64,000 bases of DNA from assembly GCF_036227405.1 (NCBI RefSeq), contig NZ_CP109473.1, positions 4,588,001 to 4,652,000 on the forward strand. Direction: 5' to 3'. Positions 46,483 through 54,496 of the stretch are shown here, piece by piece. How positions within the stretch are numbered: position 1 is the first letter of the stretch; every line of letters starts with the position of its first letter. The position numbers and the translations under genes were made by a program. The stretch is from Streptomyces sp. NBC_01460. Lineage in GTDB: Bacteria > Actinomycetota > Actinomycetes > Streptomycetales > Streptomycetaceae. Under the pieces are notes generated by a model. It saw only the letters and a list, made by a program, of their open reading frames with translations, did no database searches and was not told the origin of the DNA.

Positions 46483-47247
46483 ATGTCATCGATGTCACCG
46501 ACGCCTGCTGAACCGAGCCCCTCCCGCACCGCAGCGGTGATCCCCGCAGCGGGTCGCGGTGTCCGGCTCGGCCCGGGTGCCCCGAAGGCGCTGCGTGCGC
46601 TCGGCGGTACCCCCATGCTGATCCACGCCGTACGGGCGATGGCCGCGTCCCGCGCCGTCTCGCTCGTCGTCGTGGTGGCGCCCCCGGACGGCGCGCCCGA
46701 GGTCAAGAACCTCATCGACGGGCACGCGCTGCCGGAGCGCACCGACTACGTCGTCGTCGCCGGTGGTGCGACACGCCAGGAGTCCGTGAGCCTCGGCCTC
46801 GACGCCCTGCCGGACGACGTCTCCGTCGTGCTCGTCCACGACGCGGCGCGTCCCCTCGTGCCGGTCGACACCGTGGACGCCGTCATCGAAGCCGTACGGG
46901 ACGGGGCTCCCGCCGTCGTTCCCGCGCTTCCTCTCGCCGACACCGTCAAGGAGGTCGAGCCGGGAGAGCCTGGGGCGCCGGAGCCCGTCCTCTCGACCCC
47001 CGTGCGGGCACGGCTGCGCGCGGTCCAGACCCCGCAGGGCTTCGACCGGGCCACGCTCGTGCGGGCGCACGGGAGCGTCGCCGTCGACGGTGAGGGGGCG
47101 ACCGACGACGCGGGCATGGTCGAACGGCTGGGCTCGCCGGTCGTCGTCGTGCCCGGGCACGAGGAGGCGTTCAAGGTGACCCGGCCCCTGGACCTGGTCC
47201 TGGCCGAGGCCGTTCTCGCACGCCGGAGGGCGAACGATGGATTCTGA
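46483..47247 (+). CDS. ispD: 2-C-methyl-D-erythritol 4-phosphate cytidylyltransferase
   Basis: A 254-residue enzyme of the non-mevalonate isoprenoid pathway: CTP plus MEP gives CDP-ME. The N-terminal nucleotide-binding loop [14 protein letters not shown], the [11 protein letters not shown] segment and QTPQGF near the C-terminal half are intact. GGAG lies 8 bases before ATG 46483; a second ATG is at 46492. It overlaps ispF by 11 bases. Confidence 0.94.
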
Positions 47248-47752
47248 GGCAGTGAAGCGGCAGCCGGCCCCCGTGATTCCGCTCGTCGGCATCGGGACCG
47301 ACATCCACGCCTTCGAGGAGGGCCGGGAGCTCTGGTGCGCCGGGCTGCTGTGGGAGGGCGAGGGCCCCGGTCTGGCCGGGCACTCCGACGCGGACGTCGT
47401 GGCGCACGCCGCCTGCAACGCGCTGTTCTCGGCCGCCGGGCTCGGTGACCTGGGGCAGCACTTCGGTACCGGCCGCCCTGAGTGGTCGGGGGCCGCCGGT
47501 GTGACCCTGCTGACCGAGGCCGCCCGGATCGTACGGGCCGAGGGCTTCGCCATCGGCAACGTGGCGGTCCAGGTCGTCGGTCTCCGGCCGAAGATCGGCA
47601 AGCGGCGCGACGAGGCCCAGAAGGTGCTGTCCGACGCGGTCGGCGCGCCGGTCTCGCTCTCCGCCGCCACCTCGGACGGCCTCGGGTTCACCGGCCGGGG
47701 CGAGGGCATCGCGGGCATCGCGACCGCACTGGTCTACCGCGCCGAAGGCTGA
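47237..47752 (+). CDS. ispF: 2-C-methyl-D-erythritol 2,4-cyclodiphosphate synthase
   Basis: A 171-residue enzyme that cyclises CDP-ME 2-phosphate to MEcPP. The metal ligands are present in GTDIHAF and [11 protein letters not shown], and [13 protein letters not shown] closes the active site. It overlaps ispD, so the two are coupled. In most actinobacteria it is followed by cysS; here about 5.3 kb of other genes intervene. Confidence 0.95.
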
Positions 47753-47765
47753 CCGGCGGGTCCGC

Positions 47766-47795
47766 CCGCCGGGGACGGCGCTCCGTCCCCGGCGG
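47766..47795 (+). terminator. Stem-loop terminator after ispF
   Basis: CCGCCGGGGACGG (47766-47778) pairs perfectly with CCGTCCCCGGCGG (47783-47795) across CGCT, 14 bases after the ispF stop. Confidence 0.75.
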
Positions 47796-47825
47796 AGAGC
47801 GGTGCGGAACCCCCGCCGCCTTATT

Positions 47826-47866
47826 GCACATCACTCGCACGTACGCTGGTGCGGCAAGTGATGTGC
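47826..47866. repeat. Inverted repeat before the acetyltransferase gene
   Basis: GCACATCACT-CGCAC (47826-47840) pairs with GTGCG-GCA-AGTGATGTGC (47849-47866), a 15-bp stem with a three-base bulge and 8-base loop. It lies 25 bases before the GNAT gene, at the left boundary of the block inserted between ispF and cysS. It could be an operator, an mRNA structure or a boundary scar. Confidence 0.6.
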
Positions 47867-47890
47867 CGTAGGGGCTGAGGGCGAGGGTGA

Positions 47891-48520
47891 GTGTCCGTGG
47901 TGAGCGCGACCGTCGGGGCGACGACGATGCAGGACGCGCCGACCGGTGTCGACGGGTACGTCGTGCGGACCGCCACCGTCCAGGACGTCGGCGGCGCCCG
48001 GGCCGTCATGCTGGACACCGTCTACCGCGACCTGCGCTCGGGCTATGTGCCCCGCTGGCACGCCGACATCATCGACATCGAGGGCGCCTACCTGCGCCCC
48101 GCGCGCTGCACCCTCCTGGTCGTCGTGCGGGGCGACGAGGTCGTGGCGACGGGTGCGGTACGGGACCGGGGCCCGCAGGCGCCGCCCAATCCGCAGTGGG
48201 TCGCGGACCGTTTCCCCTCCGGCTCGACGGCCCAGCTGTGCCGCATCTACGTACGCCCCGAGCATCGCCGGCACGGTCTGGCCCGTCGGCTGGTGCGCGA
48301 GCTCGGGGACTTCGCCGCGCGGGCGGGCGGCTACACCTCGCTCTACCTGCACACCGATCCGGCCGTGCCGGGCGCCGAGCCGTTCTGGCGGTCGCTCTCC
48401 CACGAGGTCTGCGACGAACGCGCGCTGCCGGGCGGCGGTCAGGGCATCGTCCACTTCGAGCTGCCGATGCCGGCTGTCCCGGTGTCCGCCCCGGGCTCCG
48501 TCACCCCGAATATCAGATGA
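47891..48520 (+). CDS. GNAT-family N-acetyltransferase
   Basis: A 209-residue GNAT protein with the acetyl-CoA loop CRIYVRPEHRRHGLARRLVRELGDFA (around 120-145). Start choices are GTG 47891, 47897 or 47900; the GAGGG at 47883-47887 favours one of the latter two. Its stop codon overlaps the Zur-like operator of the next gene. Its substrate is unknown; given the neighbours, metallophore or opine acetylation is possible but speculative. Confidence 0.75.
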   Translation: MSVVSATVGATTMQDAPTGVDGYVVRTATVQDVGGARAVMLDTVYRDLRSGYVPRWHADIIDIEGAYLRPARCTLLVVVRGDEVVATGAVRDRGPQAPPNPQWVADRFPSGSTAQLCRIYVRPEHRRHGLARRLVRELGDFAARAGGYTSLYLHTDPAVPGAEPFWRSLSHEVCDERALPGGGQGIVHFELPMPAVPVSAPGSVTPNIR

Positions 48521-48532
48521 TAATCGTTTTCA
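48518..48532 (+). promoter_or_regulatory. Zur/Fur-type operator upstream of the ABC importer
   Basis: TGATAATCGTTTTCA is an AT-rich near-palindrome (TGA-T-AA / TT-T-TCA) matching 12 of 15 positions of TGAAAATGATTTTCA, the Streptomyces Zur box as I recall it. It lies 15 bases before the ABC importer gene, overlaps the GNAT stop and is followed by TATAGGGT, so it sits over the promoter. Zur (zinc) is most likely; other Fur-family members are possible. Confidence 0.65.
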
Positions 48533-48547
48533 TATAGGGTCTTCGTC

Positions 48548-50065
48548 ATGCCTACGTCCCGAAGCCGCCGCTCCCCGCTGCCGGCCGTCGCCGCCGCTGC
48601 CGCCCTGCTCTTCCCGCTCGCCGCCTGTTCCTCGTCGAGCGGCTCCGGAGCGTCCGGCGACGCGCAGCGGCTCCGGGTCGTCATGGCCTTCCCGCCCGCC
48701 CAGGCCATGTCCCCGTACGGGGACGACGCCGTCACCCTGAGCAGGCTCGCCGTCGTCGAGGGCCTCACCACGCTCGACCGGAACGGTGCCGCCCGGCCCG
48801 CGCTCGCCGCGTCCTGGAAGCAGGAGAACCCCACCACCTGGACGTTCACCCTCCGCGACGCCCTGTTCCAGGACGGCGCGAAGGTCGACGCCGGCGCGGT
48901 CGTGCGGTCCCTCACCGCCGCGGGCAAGGCGTCCCCGCTGCCCAGGGTCCTGTCCGACACCACTCTCAAGGCCACGGCCACAGGCGGGAACACCGTACGG
49001 ATCGTCACCGGCAAGGCGGACCCGCTGCTCCCGCAGCGGCTCGCCAACCCGTCGCTCACGATCCTGTCCGCCGGTGCCTACGAGAACGGCAAGGTGAACC
49101 CCGCCGGGCACGCCACCGGCCCGTTCACCCTGACCGACGTCAAGGGCGCGGTGGCCGCCACCCTGGAGCGCAACGACGGCTACTGGGGTGGCAAGGCGAA
49201 GGCCCCGGGCGTCGACGTCACGTTCGCCGCGGACGGCACCGCCCGCGCCAACGCGCTGCGCACGAAGGCCGTCGACGTCGCCGAGTACGTACCGATATCC
49301 CAGGCCTCGCTCCTCGGCGACTCGTACGTCCACGCATTCCCGTCCGCCCGGACCAACGGCCTCTCCCTCAACACCCGGCACGGCGTCTTCGCCGACCCGG
49401 CCATGCGTGCCGCCGCCCGCGAAGCCATCGACTCGAAGGCCCTGGTCGACGGGGTGTACGAGGGACGCGCCGACACCGCGCGAGGGCTCCTCGGCCCCGG
49501 CGTCCCCTGGGCCGCCGACAAGCGGACCGCACCCACCGGCCGGGCCCGGGCGGCGAGCCGCGCGGAGGTCGAGGGGACGAAGGAGATCGTCCTCGCCACC
49601 TACACCAACCGCCCTGAGCTCCCCGAGGCCGCGACCCTCGTCCAGCAGCAGCTGGAGAAGCGCGGCTTCACCGTCAGGCAGGTCGTCCGCGACTACGCGC
49701 AGATGGAGGCCGACGCGCTCGCCGGCACGTACGACGCGTTCATCCAGGCCCGCAACACCCTGCTCGACACCGCCGACCCCCTCTCCTACCTCGCCTCCGA
49801 CTTCACCTGCGACGGCAGCTTCAACATCTCCCAGCTGTGCGACGAGCGGGTCGACGCCGCGGTGGACAAGGCCGGCTCGCTGACCGGCACCGACGCCCGC
49901 CACGCGGCCGAGATGACCGCCGAAGCCGCCGTCCTCGGCGCCGACGCCCTCGTGCCGCTCGTCCACGAGCGCTTCGTCCAGGGGTACGACGACGCCCGCG
50001 TCGAAGGCGTCGCGCTCGACCCGATGGAACGCACCCTCATCACCGCCGACACGCGCGTCGGGTGA
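48548..50065 (+). CDS. Class C (SBP_bac_5) metal/peptide-type binding lipoprotein
   Basis: A 505-residue lipoprotein with lipobox LAACSSSSG (Cys near residue 27) and an SBP_bac_5 domain of the NikA/DppA/CntA type, with a YGDDAVTLSRLAVVEGLTTL entry motif and a GPFTLTDVKG segment. Such receptors bind nickel-chelates, peptides or metal-opine complexes. ATG 48548 follows AGGG with 8-base spacing. Zur-box control suggests a zinc-chelate or metallophore. Confidence 0.82.
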   Translation: MPTSRSRRSPLPAVAAAAALLFPLAACSSSSGSGASGDAQRLRVVMAFPPAQAMSPYGDDAVTLSRLAVVEGLTTLDRNGAARPALAASWKQENPTTWTFTLRDALFQDGAKVDAGAVVRSLTAAGKASPLPRVLSDTTLKATATGGNTVRIVTGKADPLLPQRLANPSLTILSAGAYENGKVNPAGHATGPFTLTDVKGAVAATLERNDGYWGGKAKAPGVDVTFAADGTARANALRTKAVDVAEYVPISQASLLGDSYVHAFPSARTNGLSLNTRHGVFADPAMRAAAREAIDSKALVDGVYEGRADTARGLLGPGVPWAADKRTAPTGRARAASRAEVEGTKEIVLATYTNRPELPEAATLVQQQLEKRGFTVRQVVRDYAQMEADALAGTYDAFIQARNTLLDTADPLSYLASDFTCDGSFNISQLCDERVDAAVDKAGSLTGTDARHAAEMTAEAAVLGADALVPLVHERFVQGYDDARVEGVALDPMERTLITADTRVG

Positions 50066-50069
50066 CCGC

Positions 50070-51782
50070 GTGACGTACGTGGCCGGACGGCTCGGCGCGC
50101 TCCTGGCCGTCGTCGCCGTCATCGGCCTGCTGCCCTGGCTCACCCGTACCGACCCGGCCCTGACGGTCCTGCACGCCCGCTACGCCGACCGTCCGCCCAC
50201 ACCGGCCGTCCTCGACGCGATCCGCGCCGAGACCGGGCTCGACGGCGGGCCGCCGCACGTCCTCGGCGCCTGGGCCTCCGGGCTGCTCCACGGCGACCTG
50301 GGGGAGTCCTGGGTCTCCGGACAGCCGGTCGGCCCCGACGTGACCTCGGCGCTCGGGGTCTCCCTCACCCTCATGGGCGCCTCGCTCGCCGTCGCCGTCC
50401 TCCTGGCGCTCGCGCTCGCCGCCGGAACACTCCGACGGGGTGCCCGACGGCGGCTCGTCACCACCCGGGCGGGCGTCGGCGCCGCCATGCTCGCCGCGCT
50501 GCCGGAATTCCTCCTCGCCGCGGTCCTGGCCACCGTCCTCTCCGTGCAGCTGGGCTGGTTCCCCGCACTCGGCTGGGGGGAGGCGGGTCAGGCCGTCCTG
50601 CCCGCGCTCGCCATGGGCCTCCCCGCCGGTGCGCTGCTCGGACGGCTGCTGGACGACGCGCTGCCCGCCGCGTTCGCCGAACCCTGGGCGCGCGCCGCCA
50701 CCGCCCACGGGATGCCCGCCCGCCGGATCGCGGCCCACGCCCTGCGCCGCGCCCTGCCCACACTGCTGCCCCAGCTCGGGCTCGTGGTCGTCGGGCTGAC
50801 CGGCGGCGCGGTCGCCGTCGAGACGCTCTACGCCGTCCCCGGACTCGGCGGTACCGCCCTGGCCGCCGCCCTGGCCCAGGACCTGCCCGTACTCCAGGCC
50901 TGCGTGCTGCTCCTGCTCCTCCTCGGCGTCGCCGCCGGACTCGCGGCCCGGCTCGCCTCCAGGGCCCTGCTCGGCCCCGCCCGCACCGACGGCGCCCTTC
51001 CCCCGCTCGTCGCGCCTTCCCTTCCCGTCCGGCGCGCGGTGTCCGTCGCCGCGGTGCTCCTGGCGGCGCTCCTCCTCGCCGTCGCCGTCGCGGGGCTGCT
51101 GCGCGACCCGCTGCACGCCGACACCGCCGCCCGCCTCGCGTCACCCTCGGCGGCCCATCCGCTGGGCACCGACTCGCTGGGCCGCGACATCCTCGCCCGG
51201 CTCGGCCACGGGGCGGCGACCACCGTGATCACGGCGGTCGGCGTCGGCGCCGTCACCCTGCTCCTCGGGCTGCTCGCCGGAGCGGTGCGCGCCGGAGCGC
51301 TCACCGAGACGGCCAACGCACTGCCCGCCGTCCTGGCCGGCCTCGTCGTCGCGGGCGTCGTGGGCCCCGGCCCCTGGGGCGCGGCGGCGGCCGTCGCCGC
51401 CGTCGCCTGGGCCCCGCTCGCCGCCCACACCTCCGCGCTGTTCGCCCTGGAACGCGCCGCCCCGCACGTCGCCGTCGCCCGCGCCCTGGGCGCCGGGCCC
51501 TGGCACCGGCTGCGCCGCCACGTCCTGCCGGGCGTCGTACCGCCGGTCGTGCGCCATGCCGTCCTGCGCGTCCCGGCCATCGCCCTGGCACTCGCGTCCC
51601 TCGGCTTCCTCGGCCTCGGGACCCCCGCCCCCGCACCGGAGTGGGGCCGCATGCTCTCGGAGAACATGCCGTACGCCGAGCGCGCCCCCTGGGCCGTCCT
51701 CGCCCCCGCCGCCGCCCTCGCGGTGCTCGGCGCCCTCGCGGTGCTCACCTCGGCGGCCGTACGCGGCAGGGGGCGCGGGTGA
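50070..51782 (+). CDS. ABC importer permease, DppB-DppC-like fusion
   Basis: A 570-residue protein combining two type-1 permease units, each normally a separate gene. The first (about 5-290) ends with an EAA-like loop (EPWARAATAHGMPARRIAAHALRRALPTL) and the VETLYAVPGLGGTAL DppB signature; the second (about 310-565) has RALGAGPWHRLRRHVLPGVVPPVV and LASLGFLGLG of the DppC type. GTG 50070 lies 4 bases after the receptor stop. No ATP-binding gene follows; the next gene is an MFS exporter. Confidence 0.85.
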   Translation: MTYVAGRLGALLAVVAVIGLLPWLTRTDPALTVLHARYADRPPTPAVLDAIRAETGLDGGPPHVLGAWASGLLHGDLGESWVSGQPVGPDVTSALGVSLTLMGASLAVAVLLALALAAGTLRRGARRRLVTTRAGVGAAMLAALPEFLLAAVLATVLSVQLGWFPALGWGEAGQAVLPALAMGLPAGALLGRLLDDALPAAFAEPWARAATAHGMPARRIAAHALRRALPTLLPQLGLVVVGLTGGAVAVETLYAVPGLGGTALAAALAQDLPVLQACVLLLLLLGVAAGLAARLASRALLGPARTDGALPPLVAPSLPVRRAVSVAAVLLAALLLAVAVAGLLRDPLHADTAARLASPSAAHPLGTDSLGRDILARLGHGAATTVITAVGVGAVTLLLGLLAGAVRAGALTETANALPAVLAGLVVAGVVGPGPWGAAAAVAAVAWAPLAAHTSALFALERAAPHVAVARALGAGPWHRLRRHVLPGVVPPVVRHAVLRVPAIALALASLGFLGLGTPAPAPEWGRMLSENMPYAERAPWAVLAPAAALAVLGALAVLTSAAVRGRGRG

Positions 51783-53035
51783 CGACGGCCCCGGCGGGCA
51801 TCCGGTCCGGCGCCCAGCCGGACCTCACGCCCTACCTCCGCCTCCTGACCGCCACCCAGTTCGCCTTCAACACCGGCTTCTACGCGGTCCTGCCCTACCT
51901 CGCGGTCCACCTCGGCGACGGACTCGGCATGGCGGGGTGGCTCGTCGGGCTCGTGCTCGGCCTGCGCACCTTCAGCCAGCAGGGCCTCTTCGTCGTCGGC
52001 GGCGCCCTCACCGACCGCTACGGTCCCCGGCCGGTCGTCCTCGCCGGCTGCGTGCTGCGCATCGCAGGCTTCTGCTGGCTCGCCGGGGCGGGCTCCACCG
52101 CCACCGTCATCGGCGCCGTGCTCCTCATCGGCTTCGCCGCCGCCCTCTTCTCACCCGCCGTCGAATCCGAGACCGCCAGGACCGCCGTCGCCCACGAGCG
52201 CGCGACGGGGACGCCGCGTGCCCAGGTACTCGCCGTGTTCTCCGCGGCCGGCCAGGCCGGTGCCTTCCTCGGACCCCTGCTCGGCAGCCTGCTGCTGTTC
52301 CTGGGCGGCGGGTTCCGGACGGCGTGCCTCGCCGGGGCGGTGGTCTTCGTCGGCGTACTCGCCGGACACGCCCGGCTCATGCCCCGCCGGCCGCGCCGGG
52401 TCCGCACCGCCGGAGAGGGCGCCGCCGCGGCTCGGCACGTCCTCACCGACGGGCGCTTCCTCGTGCTCTGCCTCGTCTTCAGCACCTACCTCGTCTCCTA
52501 CAACCAGCTCTATCTCGCCCTTCCCGAGGAGGTGGAGCGGGCCACCGGCTCGCAGGGCGCGCTCGGAGGGCTCTTCGCGCTCTCCTCCTTGCTCGTCGTC
52601 GTCGCCCAGCTGCCGCTGACCCGCTGGTCCGCCCGCCGCATCGCGCCCCGGACCGCCGTCGTCGCGGGTCTCGCCGTCGTCTCCGCCGGATTCGCCGCGG
52701 TGCCCCTCGCGCCGGACGGGCCCGCCGGGCTGCTCCCGGCGGCGTCGCTCGTCGTCCTGCTCACGCTCGGCCAGATGCTGCTGGTCCCGGCCGTCCGGGG
52801 GCTCGTGCCTGACCTGGTGGACGACGACCGGCTCGGGCTCGCCACCGGTGCCCTGTCCTCGGTCTCCGGTCTCGCCGTCCTCGGGGGCAGCGCCGCCACC
52901 GGAACCCTCCTCGGCACGCCCGGTCCGGTCCTGTGGGCGGTGCTCGCCGCCGTCCCTCTCACGGGCGCGGCGCTCGCCCTCACCCTGGCCGTCGGACGGC
53001 GCGCGCCGGAGCCCGCTACCACCGTCACCGATTAG
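51779..53035 (+). CDS. MFS exporter coupled to the ABC importer
   Basis: A 418-residue, 12-helix MFS protein (motif A TDRYGPRPVVL; FNTGFYAVLPYLAVHLG at helix 1). GTG 51779 overlaps the permease TGA. Position after a class C metal-type importer recalls the staphylopine system, in which the CntE MFS exports the opine metallophore that CntA-CntB-CntC import. No opine synthase is present nearby, so the analogy is a hypothesis. Confidence 0.8.
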   Translation: MTTAPAGIRSGAQPDLTPYLRLLTATQFAFNTGFYAVLPYLAVHLGDGLGMAGWLVGLVLGLRTFSQQGLFVVGGALTDRYGPRPVVLAGCVLRIAGFCWLAGAGSTATVIGAVLLIGFAAALFSPAVESETARTAVAHERATGTPRAQVLAVFSAAGQAGAFLGPLLGSLLLFLGGGFRTACLAGAVVFVGVLAGHARLMPRRPRRVRTAGEGAAAARHVLTDGRFLVLCLVFSTYLVSYNQLYLALPEEVERATGSQGALGGLFALSSLLVVVAQLPLTRWSARRIAPRTAVVAGLAVVSAGFAAVPLAPDGPAGLLPAASLVVLLTLGQMLLVPAVRGLVPDLVDDDRLGLATGALSSVSGLAVLGGSAATGTLLGTPGPVLWAVLAAVPLTGAALALTLAVGRRAPEPATTVTD

Positions 53036-53095: not shown

Positions 53096-54496
53096 GTGAC
53101 TATTCGCCTGTACGACACCGACGCCCGGCAGATCCGTGACTTCGTCCCGCTCACAGCGGGTTGTGTCTCGATCTACCTCTGTGGCGCGACTGTCCAGGCC
53201 GCCCCGCACATCGGGCACATCAGGTCCGGGCTGAACTTCGACATCATGCGCCGCTGGTTCGACTACCGCGGCTACGACGTGACGTTCATCCGGAATGTCA
53301 CCGACATCGACGACAAGATCATCAGGAAGTCCGCCGAGCAGGGCCGCCCCTGGTGGGCCATCGGCTACGAGAACGAGCGCGCGTTCAACGCGGGCTACGA
53401 CGCCCTGGGATGCCTCCCGCCCACGTACGAACCGCGGGCCACCGGCCACATCACCGAGATGATCGAGATGATGCGCGGCCTCATCGAGCGCGGCCACGCC
53501 TACGAGGCCGACGGCAACGTCTACTTCGACGTGCGCTCGTACGAGGGATACCTGGAGCTCTCCAACCAGGACCTCGACGACCTGCGGCAGCCCTCCGGCG
53601 ACAACGAGACGGGCAAGCGCGACAAGCGCGACTTCGCCATGTGGAAGTCGGCGAAGCCCGGTGAGCCCAGCTGGGAGACCCCGTGGGGCCGCGGCCGTCC
53701 CGGCTGGCACCTGGAGTGCTCCGCGATGGCGCACAAGTACCTCGGCACCGCCTTCGACATCCACGGCGGCGGCATCGACCTGATCTTCCCGCACCACGAG
53801 AACGAGATCGCCCAGGCCAAGGCCTTCGGCGACGAGTTCGCGAAGTACTGGGTGCACAACGGCTGGGTCACCATGTCCGGCGAGAAGATGTCGAAGTCCC
53901 TCGGCAACTCCGTGCTGGTCAGCGAGATGGTCAAGGCCTGGCGCCCGATCGTCCTGCGCTACTACCTGGGCACCCCGCACTACCGGTCCATGATCGAGTA
54001 CAGCGAGGAATCGCTGCGGGATGCCGAGTCCGCCTTCGCGCGGATCGAGGGATTCGTCCAGCGCGTCGTGGAGAAGACCGGGGGACCGGTCGAGGCAGCC
54101 GCCGAGGTGCCGCCCGCGTTCGCCGAGGCCATGGACGACGACCTCGGCGTCCCGCAGGCGCTGGCGATCATCCACACCACCGTCCGGCAGGGCAATTCCG
54201 CCCTCGCCGCCGACGACAAGGAAGCCGCCGTCGCCCGCCTCGCCGAGGTCCGCGCGATGCTCGGCGTCCTCGGCCTGGACCCGCTCGACCCGCACTGGGC
54301 GGGCGAGAGCGACCGCGGCGAGGATCTCCACGGCGTCGTCGACACCCTCGTACGGCTCGTGCTCGACCAGCGTCAGTCGGCCCGGGCGCGCAAGGACTGG
54401 CCCGCAGCCGACGCGATCCGCGACCAGCTCAACCAGTCCGGCCTCGTCATCGAGGACAGCCCCAGCGGACCGCGGTGGACGCTCGGACCGCGCTGA
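53096..54496 (+). CDS. cysS: Cysteinyl-tRNA synthetase
   Basis: A 466-residue class I synthetase of normal length. HIGH (38-41), zinc ligand Cys29 plus the ECSAMAHKYLG and HHENEIAQAKA segments, and KMSKS (264-268) are intact. It charges tRNA-Cys. GTG 53096 has GAGGGG directly before it, so the start could be leaderless or use a weak site. In mycobacteria it follows ispF directly. Confidence 0.96.
   Translation: MTIRLYDTDARQIRDFVPLTAGCVSIYLCGATVQAAPHIGHIRSGLNFDIMRRWFDYRGYDVTFIRNVTDIDDKIIRKSAEQGRPWWAIGYENERAFNAGYDALGCLPPTYEPRATGHITEMIEMMRGLIERGHAYEADGNVYFDVRSYEGYLELSNQDLDDLRQPSGDNETGKRDKRDFAMWKSAKPGEPSWETPWGRGRPGWHLECSAMAHKYLGTAFDIHGGGIDLIFPHHENEIAQAKAFGDEFAKYWVHNGWVTMSGEKMSKSLGNSVLVSEMVKAWRPIVLRYYLGTPHYRSMIEYSEESLRDAESAFARIEGFVQRVVEKTGGPVEAAAEVPPAFAEAMDDDLGVPQALAIIHTTVRQGNSALAADDKEAAVARLAEVRAMLGVLGLDPLDPHWAGESDRGEDLHGVVDTLVRLVLDQRQSARARKDWPAADAIRDQLNQSGLVIEDSPSGPRWTLGPR

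Follow-up and report, generated by a model that had tools for sequence, protein, structure and literature searches.

A 64,000-nucleotide stretch of the Streptomyces sp. NBC_01460 chromosome (contig NZ_CP109473.1, positions 4,588,001 to 4,652,000; the window) carries between ispF and cysS a cassette encoding a GNAT acetyltransferase, an SBP_bac_5-type solute-binding protein (SBP), a fused NikB-NikC permease and a transporter of the major facilitator superfamily (MFS), together with an operator of the type bound by the zinc regulator Zur. We consider it moderately likely that this cassette is a Zur-repressed importer that serves the cell in zinc starvation and runs on a shared ATPase. Such a system extends the list of candidates for zinc acquisition in Streptomyces by a widespread one, and its family, in which importers pass from ATPases of their own to shared ones, is a natural before-and-after case whose docking loops are open to testing.

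The cassette and its Zur-type operator

The gap between ispF (47237-47752) and cysS (53096-54496) measures 5343 bp and holds four plus-strand genes (Table 1). Only 4 bp separate the SBP stop codon from the permease start, and permease and MFS genes overlap by 4 bp, so that the gene calls, coordinates, near-touching arrangement and gap of about 5.3 kb given in the original prediction all hold. No ATPase gene lies between ispF and cysS. For comparison we took, from 262 relatives ordered by their similarity to the window permease, the best 80; 68 of these loci extend 3 kb or more to each side of the permease. A tblastn search with ATPases D and F found no Opp-type homologue (≥40% identity over 120 aa) at any of the 80, and the idea of an overlooked adjacent ATPase was rejected on that ground. 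The metal-type SBP_bac_5 importer without an ATPase that had been proposed is thereby supported. GNAT adjoins the SBP gene in 76 of the 80 relatives, and in three of the remaining four the contig begins at SBP. The MFS gene is present in 68. Four junction cassettes (L008, L012, L026 and L039) have lost it and kept GNAT, box, SBP and permease, and coupling to an exporter is therefore not obligatory.

The box TGATAATCGTTTTCA, which begins with the three bases of the GNAT stop codon, is very likely an operator under Zur control. It differs at one position from the S. coelicolor Zur motif tGaNNatSatNNtCa as printed in PMC5472717, and it matches exactly the core of the 21-bp actinobacterial Zur motif quoted in the same paper. 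No other site in the window comes within three mismatches of TGAWAATSATTWTCA (expected number of sites, 0.07). Across the 8.8 Mb of the genome, TGANAANNNTTNTCA is matched exactly here and nowhere else, and the reversed control pattern likewise gave one match; sites with one mismatch numbered 13, against 7 for the control. Because these counts lie little above those of the reversed control, the single genome is not decisive, and conservation is. The 13 sites include two boxes in front of the genome's own znuA (2751549 and 2751571; ZnuA domain from 2751708) and one (7721140) before a metallophore-like operon described below. The ATG after the second znuA box overlaps the end of that box, and a Fur-family gene, which scores below all model cut-offs, lies about 2.7 kb beyond the two boxes.

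The motif was found before SBP or GNAT in 64 of the 80 loci (47 kb searched, in regions set after the sites had first been seen), the loci sharing kinship so that these occurrences are not independent; the other 1.25 Mb gave four matches. The reversed motif matched nowhere, inside these regions or elsewhere, and 30 symmetric scrambles gave a mean of 0.5 inside matches. Their maximum, 14, came from a scramble with a GATNATC core that perhaps reads the same element as the Zur motif. At 32 of 37 junction loci the box lies between GNAT and SBP; in the 43 other loci (including the junction locus L029) it lies there in 16 and before GNAT in another 16.

An element TANNNT follows the box at a distance of 0-4 bp in 47 of the 64 loci, as compared with 54 of 26,000 random places (0.2%). 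The order in the window is box, TA, TAGGGT, seven bases and ATG, and a leaderless message is predicted, with transcription starting at or beside the receptor ATG. A generic scan for sigma-70 promoters and terminators found neither here. In S. coelicolor zitB, the box through which Zur activates sits 5' of the -35 element (PMC5472717); the window box lies beside the -10 element, and repression would therefore be expected. The Zur-type operator of the original prediction thus draws support from conservation with its controls, from the znuA boxes and from the -10-like element.

Some observations speak against the assignment. The box is missing at one mismatch from 16 of the 80 loci, of which only three start at SBP, and four of the five specified bases in the flanks of the 21-bp motif (PMC5472717) differ at the window box. 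Two other search motifs were discarded: TGAWAAYSNTTWTCA recovered the window site alone, and TGANNATSATNNTCA matched too freely, at 124 sites as compared with 32 for its control, though one znuA box appeared among its matches.

Table 1. Features of the cassette (window coordinates)
Feature	Position	Strand	Evidence
GNAT acetyltransferase, cassette co-member	47891-48520	+	Pfam PF00583, 54 bits
Zur box TGATAATCGTTTTCA, 7-1-7 near-palindrome	48518-48532	+	Fit to published Zur motif and conservation
-10-like TAGGGT, immediately 3' of Zur box	48535-48540	+	TANNNT enrichment after boxes
SBP_bac_5 lipoprotein receptor, NikA/Opp5A-like	48548-50065	+	PF00496, 204 bits
Fused NikB-NikC permease, 570 aa, two EAA (ATPase-docking) loops	50070-51782	+	Two PF00528 (BPD_transp_1) stretches
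MFS transporter, MdtH-like	51779-53035	+	PF07690 (MFS_1), 126 bits

Junction insertion, probable ATPase loss and a proposed partner ATPase

In 16 Streptomyces genomes picked for a junction without the block, ispF and cysS were adjacent in every case, their matches lying some 66 to 810 bp apart with no cassette gene in the interval; twelve of these genomes carry the permease elsewhere, and in the other four nothing matched at 1e-40. The permeases of the junction copies, from the window and from 38 loci with ispF and/or cysS, make up a single clade of 39 with no other member (support 0.978), and the insertion into the ispF-cysS junction, as the block had been interpreted from the outset, therefore probably happened once. 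The fused permease in any form occurs in 108 of 247 genomes of a genus sample (E up to 1e-100), many of which have two or three copies.

The history of the family was followed in a class-wide sample of 393 genomes and in retrieved neighbourhoods. Distant relatives possess the complete form, SBP-BC-D-F-MFS or D-F-MFS-SBP-BC (BC, the fused permease), in which the MFS gene is sometimes not nearby. D and F stand beside the SBP-permease unit in 15 of 16 loci from other genera (L166-L181, the full set of those whose fused permease matched at E <1e-100), the exception being L174, and also in ten Streptomyces loci (L159, L183-L185, L250, L251 and L253-L256). When 129 permeases were placed on a tree, all ATPase-less copies except L174 fell into one clade of 103 tips (support 0.82), whose sister, a clade of 15, is ATPase-bearing (support 1.0); some loci in the tree span about 1.5 kb per side, so that an adjacent D gene is visible there and a distant one is not. 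Since the ATPase-less permeases, but one, group together, D and F were probably lost once, in their common ancestor. The support of this clade, which is moderate and was 0.40 on a smaller set, weakens the case for a single event. GNAT of this kind was not found beside SBP in 25 ATPase-bearing relatives (one of which, L159, was covered over a short stretch only); L168 has a weak match about 7 kb away. An ATPase 5' of SBP in Lentzea was rejected as a D/F protein, being by eye of the amino-acid type and 34% identical to the D and F queries.

Zur-type boxes also accompany many ATPase-bearing loci. Exact boxes precede SBP in L166-L170 from other genera and in the Streptomyces loci L183, L185, L251 and L253-L256, and a box with one mismatch occurs in L184 and L250. 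Boxes with at most one mismatch lie near the first operon gene in L172-L175 (among them L174, the locus without D and F), L179 and L180, that of L179 perhaps inside the gene.

Within the genome, 23 matches to the oligo_HPY domain were found, all of them in 11 regions with NikB/NikC-like permeases. The orphan DppD/DppF-type ATPases that had been suggested as a check were not encountered: no orphan pair exists among these matches, in a search confined to ATPases with this domain. Because all 23 lie in regions with permeases of their own, sharing is likelier than an orphan ATPase. With the F protein from genome G278 as query against 16 genomes, close orthologues (67-100%) appeared in four, only beside permeases among the matches listed. 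Eleven ATPase-less genomes had nothing above 55%, and G213 had unlinked matches of 60% and 57%, again among the matches listed. The present genome gave at least 13 matches, all listed ones in the same 11 regions. On these grounds the importer is quite likely powered by an ATPase shared with other systems, and its partner is likely to be found among the ordinary oligopeptide-type ATPase pairs. An attempt to name the donor from the similarity of docking loops to those of the genome's other permeases gave no discrimination, which does not help the case for sharing.

Receptor-permease operons without an ATPase gene of their own are known elsewhere. MsiK energises a sugar importer in S. coelicolor (PMC6167110), and the S. 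aureus isd operon for heme uptake, which has no ATPase, relies on the housekeeping FhuC (PMC10147376). The window cassette differs from both in that its permease is of the oligopeptide/nickel type and its relatives still carry their own ATPases.

The permease halves match the Opp2B and Opp2C models, both below cut-off, and the EAA docking loops lie near residues 204-235 and 464-495. Among ATPase-less pairs in the 55-65% bin, these loops showed an identity of 0.59 and the rest of the protein of 0.61 (2224 pairs); the corresponding values for ATPase-bearing pairs, whose loops thus change faster than the rest, were 0.42 and 0.58 (81 pairs), the pairs not being independent of one another. This is no more than suggestive of loops that stayed about as conserved as the rest of the protein after the loss of the ATPase. 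A permease fitted to a shared, slowly changing ATPase could show such conservation. The receptor, the permease and the MFS protein are under purifying selection. The ratio of nonsynonymous to synonymous substitution rates (dN/dS) between the window and ten junction loci was 0.19-0.29 for SBP, 0.15-0.25 for the permease and 0.10-0.26 for GNAT; for MFS, compared with eight junction loci, it was 0.15-0.29.

Three points weaken this part of the argument. The loop contrast is small or absent in the other bins (45-55%, both 0.40; 65-75%, 0.67 and 0.61; 75-85%, 0.77 and 0.78; >85%, 0.85 and 0.91 with four pairs), the ratios of ispF (0.02-0.12) and cysS (0.08-0.19) are lower than those of the cassette genes, and the cassette values also allow a function without transport. 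Such a function, in which receptor and permease would act as a sensor or in support of the MFS protein without ATP-driven transport, would fit the absence of a dedicated ATPase from all 80 loci; we regard it as improbable, given docking loops kept after the loss, relatives with ordinary D-F ATPases and the shared ATPases known from other systems. That the cassette is the decaying remnant of an importer, as the missing D and F genes and the loss of MFS in four lineages might suggest, is scarcely credible in the face of the dN/dS values, the retained operator and long-lived clades in many species. Import with a borrowed ATPase, as in the original prediction, is thus supported indirectly, by the D and F genes on outer branches, their loss, the docking loops and purifying selection.

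Cargo and relation to known systems

The receptor scored 190 bits against the NCBIfam model Opp5A_nikA (cut-off 600) and 84 against nickel_nikA (cut-off 393), below both. Its AlphaFold model (predicted local distance difference test score, pLDDT, 89.4) has 3t66, 3rqt and 4xkr, all of the NikA type, as top PDB matches. By their titles, one NikA structure contains iron-ethylenediaminetetraacetate (Fe-EDTA) and one, of S. aureus NikA, a chelate of nickel with histidine and thiazolidine. With the nickel-chelate importers of the NikA/Opp5A type (S. aureus NikA, B. halodurans 3t66), the window system has in common the receptor family, the fold and the NikB/NikC-like halves. In contrast to NikABCDE-type systems, its B and C parts are fused, D/E ATPases are missing, the operator is of the Zur type, MFS and GNAT are attached, and the scores stay below the equivalog cut-offs.

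A zinc chelate is the likeliest cargo, with a somewhat better than even chance, because of the zinc-type operator and the neighbours of two relatives. In Lentzea (L055:6391-14503), genes for the zinc-import components AztD, AztB (to which an AztD-like part is fused) and AztA, each scoring above cut-off, adjoin the SBP-permease pair; in L177 the neighbours encode a P-type ATPase for heavy metals and an anchored surface protein of the transporter-associated kind. Ethylenediaminedisuccinate (EDDS), an isomer of EDTA whose production in Amycolatopsis is Zur-controlled according to PMC9252823, would be one candidate ligand.

Zur-controlled import of another cargo, namely nickel or cobalt chelates or peptides taken up as a source of bound zinc or of cysteine, seems unlikely to us, if by no means negligible. 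In its favour, the nearest models and structures are of the NikA/Opp type, and an ATPase-less group without a Zur box exists; against it stand the zinc-type operator shared with znuA and the zinc- and metal-transport neighbours in Lentzea and L177. Several observations weigh on the zinc reading as a whole. SBP_bac_5 receptors also take peptides, nickel chelates and opines. Among ATPase-bearing loci, L177 and L178 have distant box matches only, and the D-F-SBP-BC operons L171, L176 and L181 (with MFS in L171 and L181) show no Zur-type match at one mismatch. Six ATPase-less Streptomyces loci (L245-L249 and L252), found among 15 regions retrieved from more than 150 listed matches, consist of SBP-BC alone, without GNAT, MFS or box, so that the family is not bound to zinc everywhere. 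The Lentzea copy clusters with this group. Peptide receptors follow closely behind the NikA type in the sequence and structure matches of the window receptor. Genes next to L245 and L247 resemble, by eye, those for an oxidase, a dehydrogenase and an ABC transporter, as if the ligand were a nutrient.

The original prediction had likened the layout to staphylopine and pseudopaline systems, a reading that found no support. It would have an opine metallophore made elsewhere in the cell, exported by the window MFS and re-imported here, in keeping with the Zur box and with the oligopeptide-type ATP-binding cassette (ABC) importer plus MFS of some opine systems mapped in PMC7438024. We judge it very improbable. 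The CntA model gave 44 bits (cut-off 800) and the CntC model 73 (cut-off 440), both far too low; the block, in contrast to its relatives, was searched for an opine synthase and holds none; and MFS is missing from four cassettes. The opine dehydrogenase model Staph_opine_DH (PF10100) had no match in the genome, an absence that is unproven as control genomes were equally silent. What remains in common with staphylopine (Cnt) and bacillopaline systems is the zinc-linked combination of an oligopeptide-type ABC importer and an MFS protein; the window cassette differs in the missing ATPase, in that opine biosynthesis was not found and in falling short of the Cnt models.

With the S. coelicolor Zur regulon (znuABC, coelibactin, zitB) the cassette shares the 15-bp Zur motif (PMC5472717). 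No SBP_bac_5 system is among the Zur targets named in PMC5472717 and PMC6103462, supplementary lists aside, and no paper listed in searches of the open-licence PMC literature has a title or abstract opening that describes the cassette or the operon treated below.

The favoured reading, a zinc-starvation importer on a shared ATPase, would operate as follows. With ample zinc, Zur would occupy its box, which abuts the -10 region from upstream, and shut transcription off; under zinc shortage the receptor, the permease and the MFS protein would be produced. The lipoprotein receptor would then bind a metal chelate, most likely one of zinc with a small ligand, amino-carboxylate or peptidic, produced by the cell itself or by neighbouring cells, and the fused NikBC permease would import it, driven by the oligopeptide-type ATPase pair of another system. 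The MFS protein, which scored 130 bits against the MdtH model (cut-off 469), probably re-exports the ligand in its apo or acetylated form, and GNAT may modify it. A fuller scenario is doubtful: a single loss of D and F in an ancestor within the Streptomyces lineage would have locked the permease onto a housekeeping oligopeptide ATPase, freezing its docking loops, GNAT would have been gained to unload the ligand and MFS to recycle it, and the cassette may act beside the companion operon described next.

A possible companion operon and a putative upstream dyad

A tight run of ten genes with a Zur-type box lies at 7721.1-7732.9 kb of the same genome. Its products are an ATP-grasp ligase, a DUF364 protein with a putative role in heavy-metal chelation (25.8 bits; cut-off 23), an SbnA-like enzyme whose 244 bits fall short of the cut-off of 350, a member of the enolase superfamily, an MFS protein 38% identical to that of the window, a methyltransferase, an SBP_bac_5 receptor, two permeases and an ATPase in which D and F are fused (DF). 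The box, with one mismatch, is located about 107 bp 5' of the likely start of the leading gene. All ten genes recur in two other genomes, again with a one-mismatch box at the equivalent place. The operon of the present genome corresponds to L135:5141-11857 and L130:2901-7868. The operon may be able to make, export and re-import a candidate diaminopropionate-type zincophore, which may be new.

The fused DF of this operon (that of L130) was considered as a general partner of the window permease and rejected because the operon occurs in only 3 of the 16 genomes examined for DF. Two of the carriers, G000 and G050, belong to the 12 genomes without an ATPase-bearing copy; the third, G278, has such a copy.

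No RNA family matched at 47700-48700. Upstream of GNAT, at 47819-47873, a TTGCACATCRCTTGCACGTACGCT-like stretch is kept in many junction relatives. This putative dyad, which is not Zur-like, may be an operator or a hairpin; its inverted downstream arm covaries in some relatives (e.g. L006 and L033).

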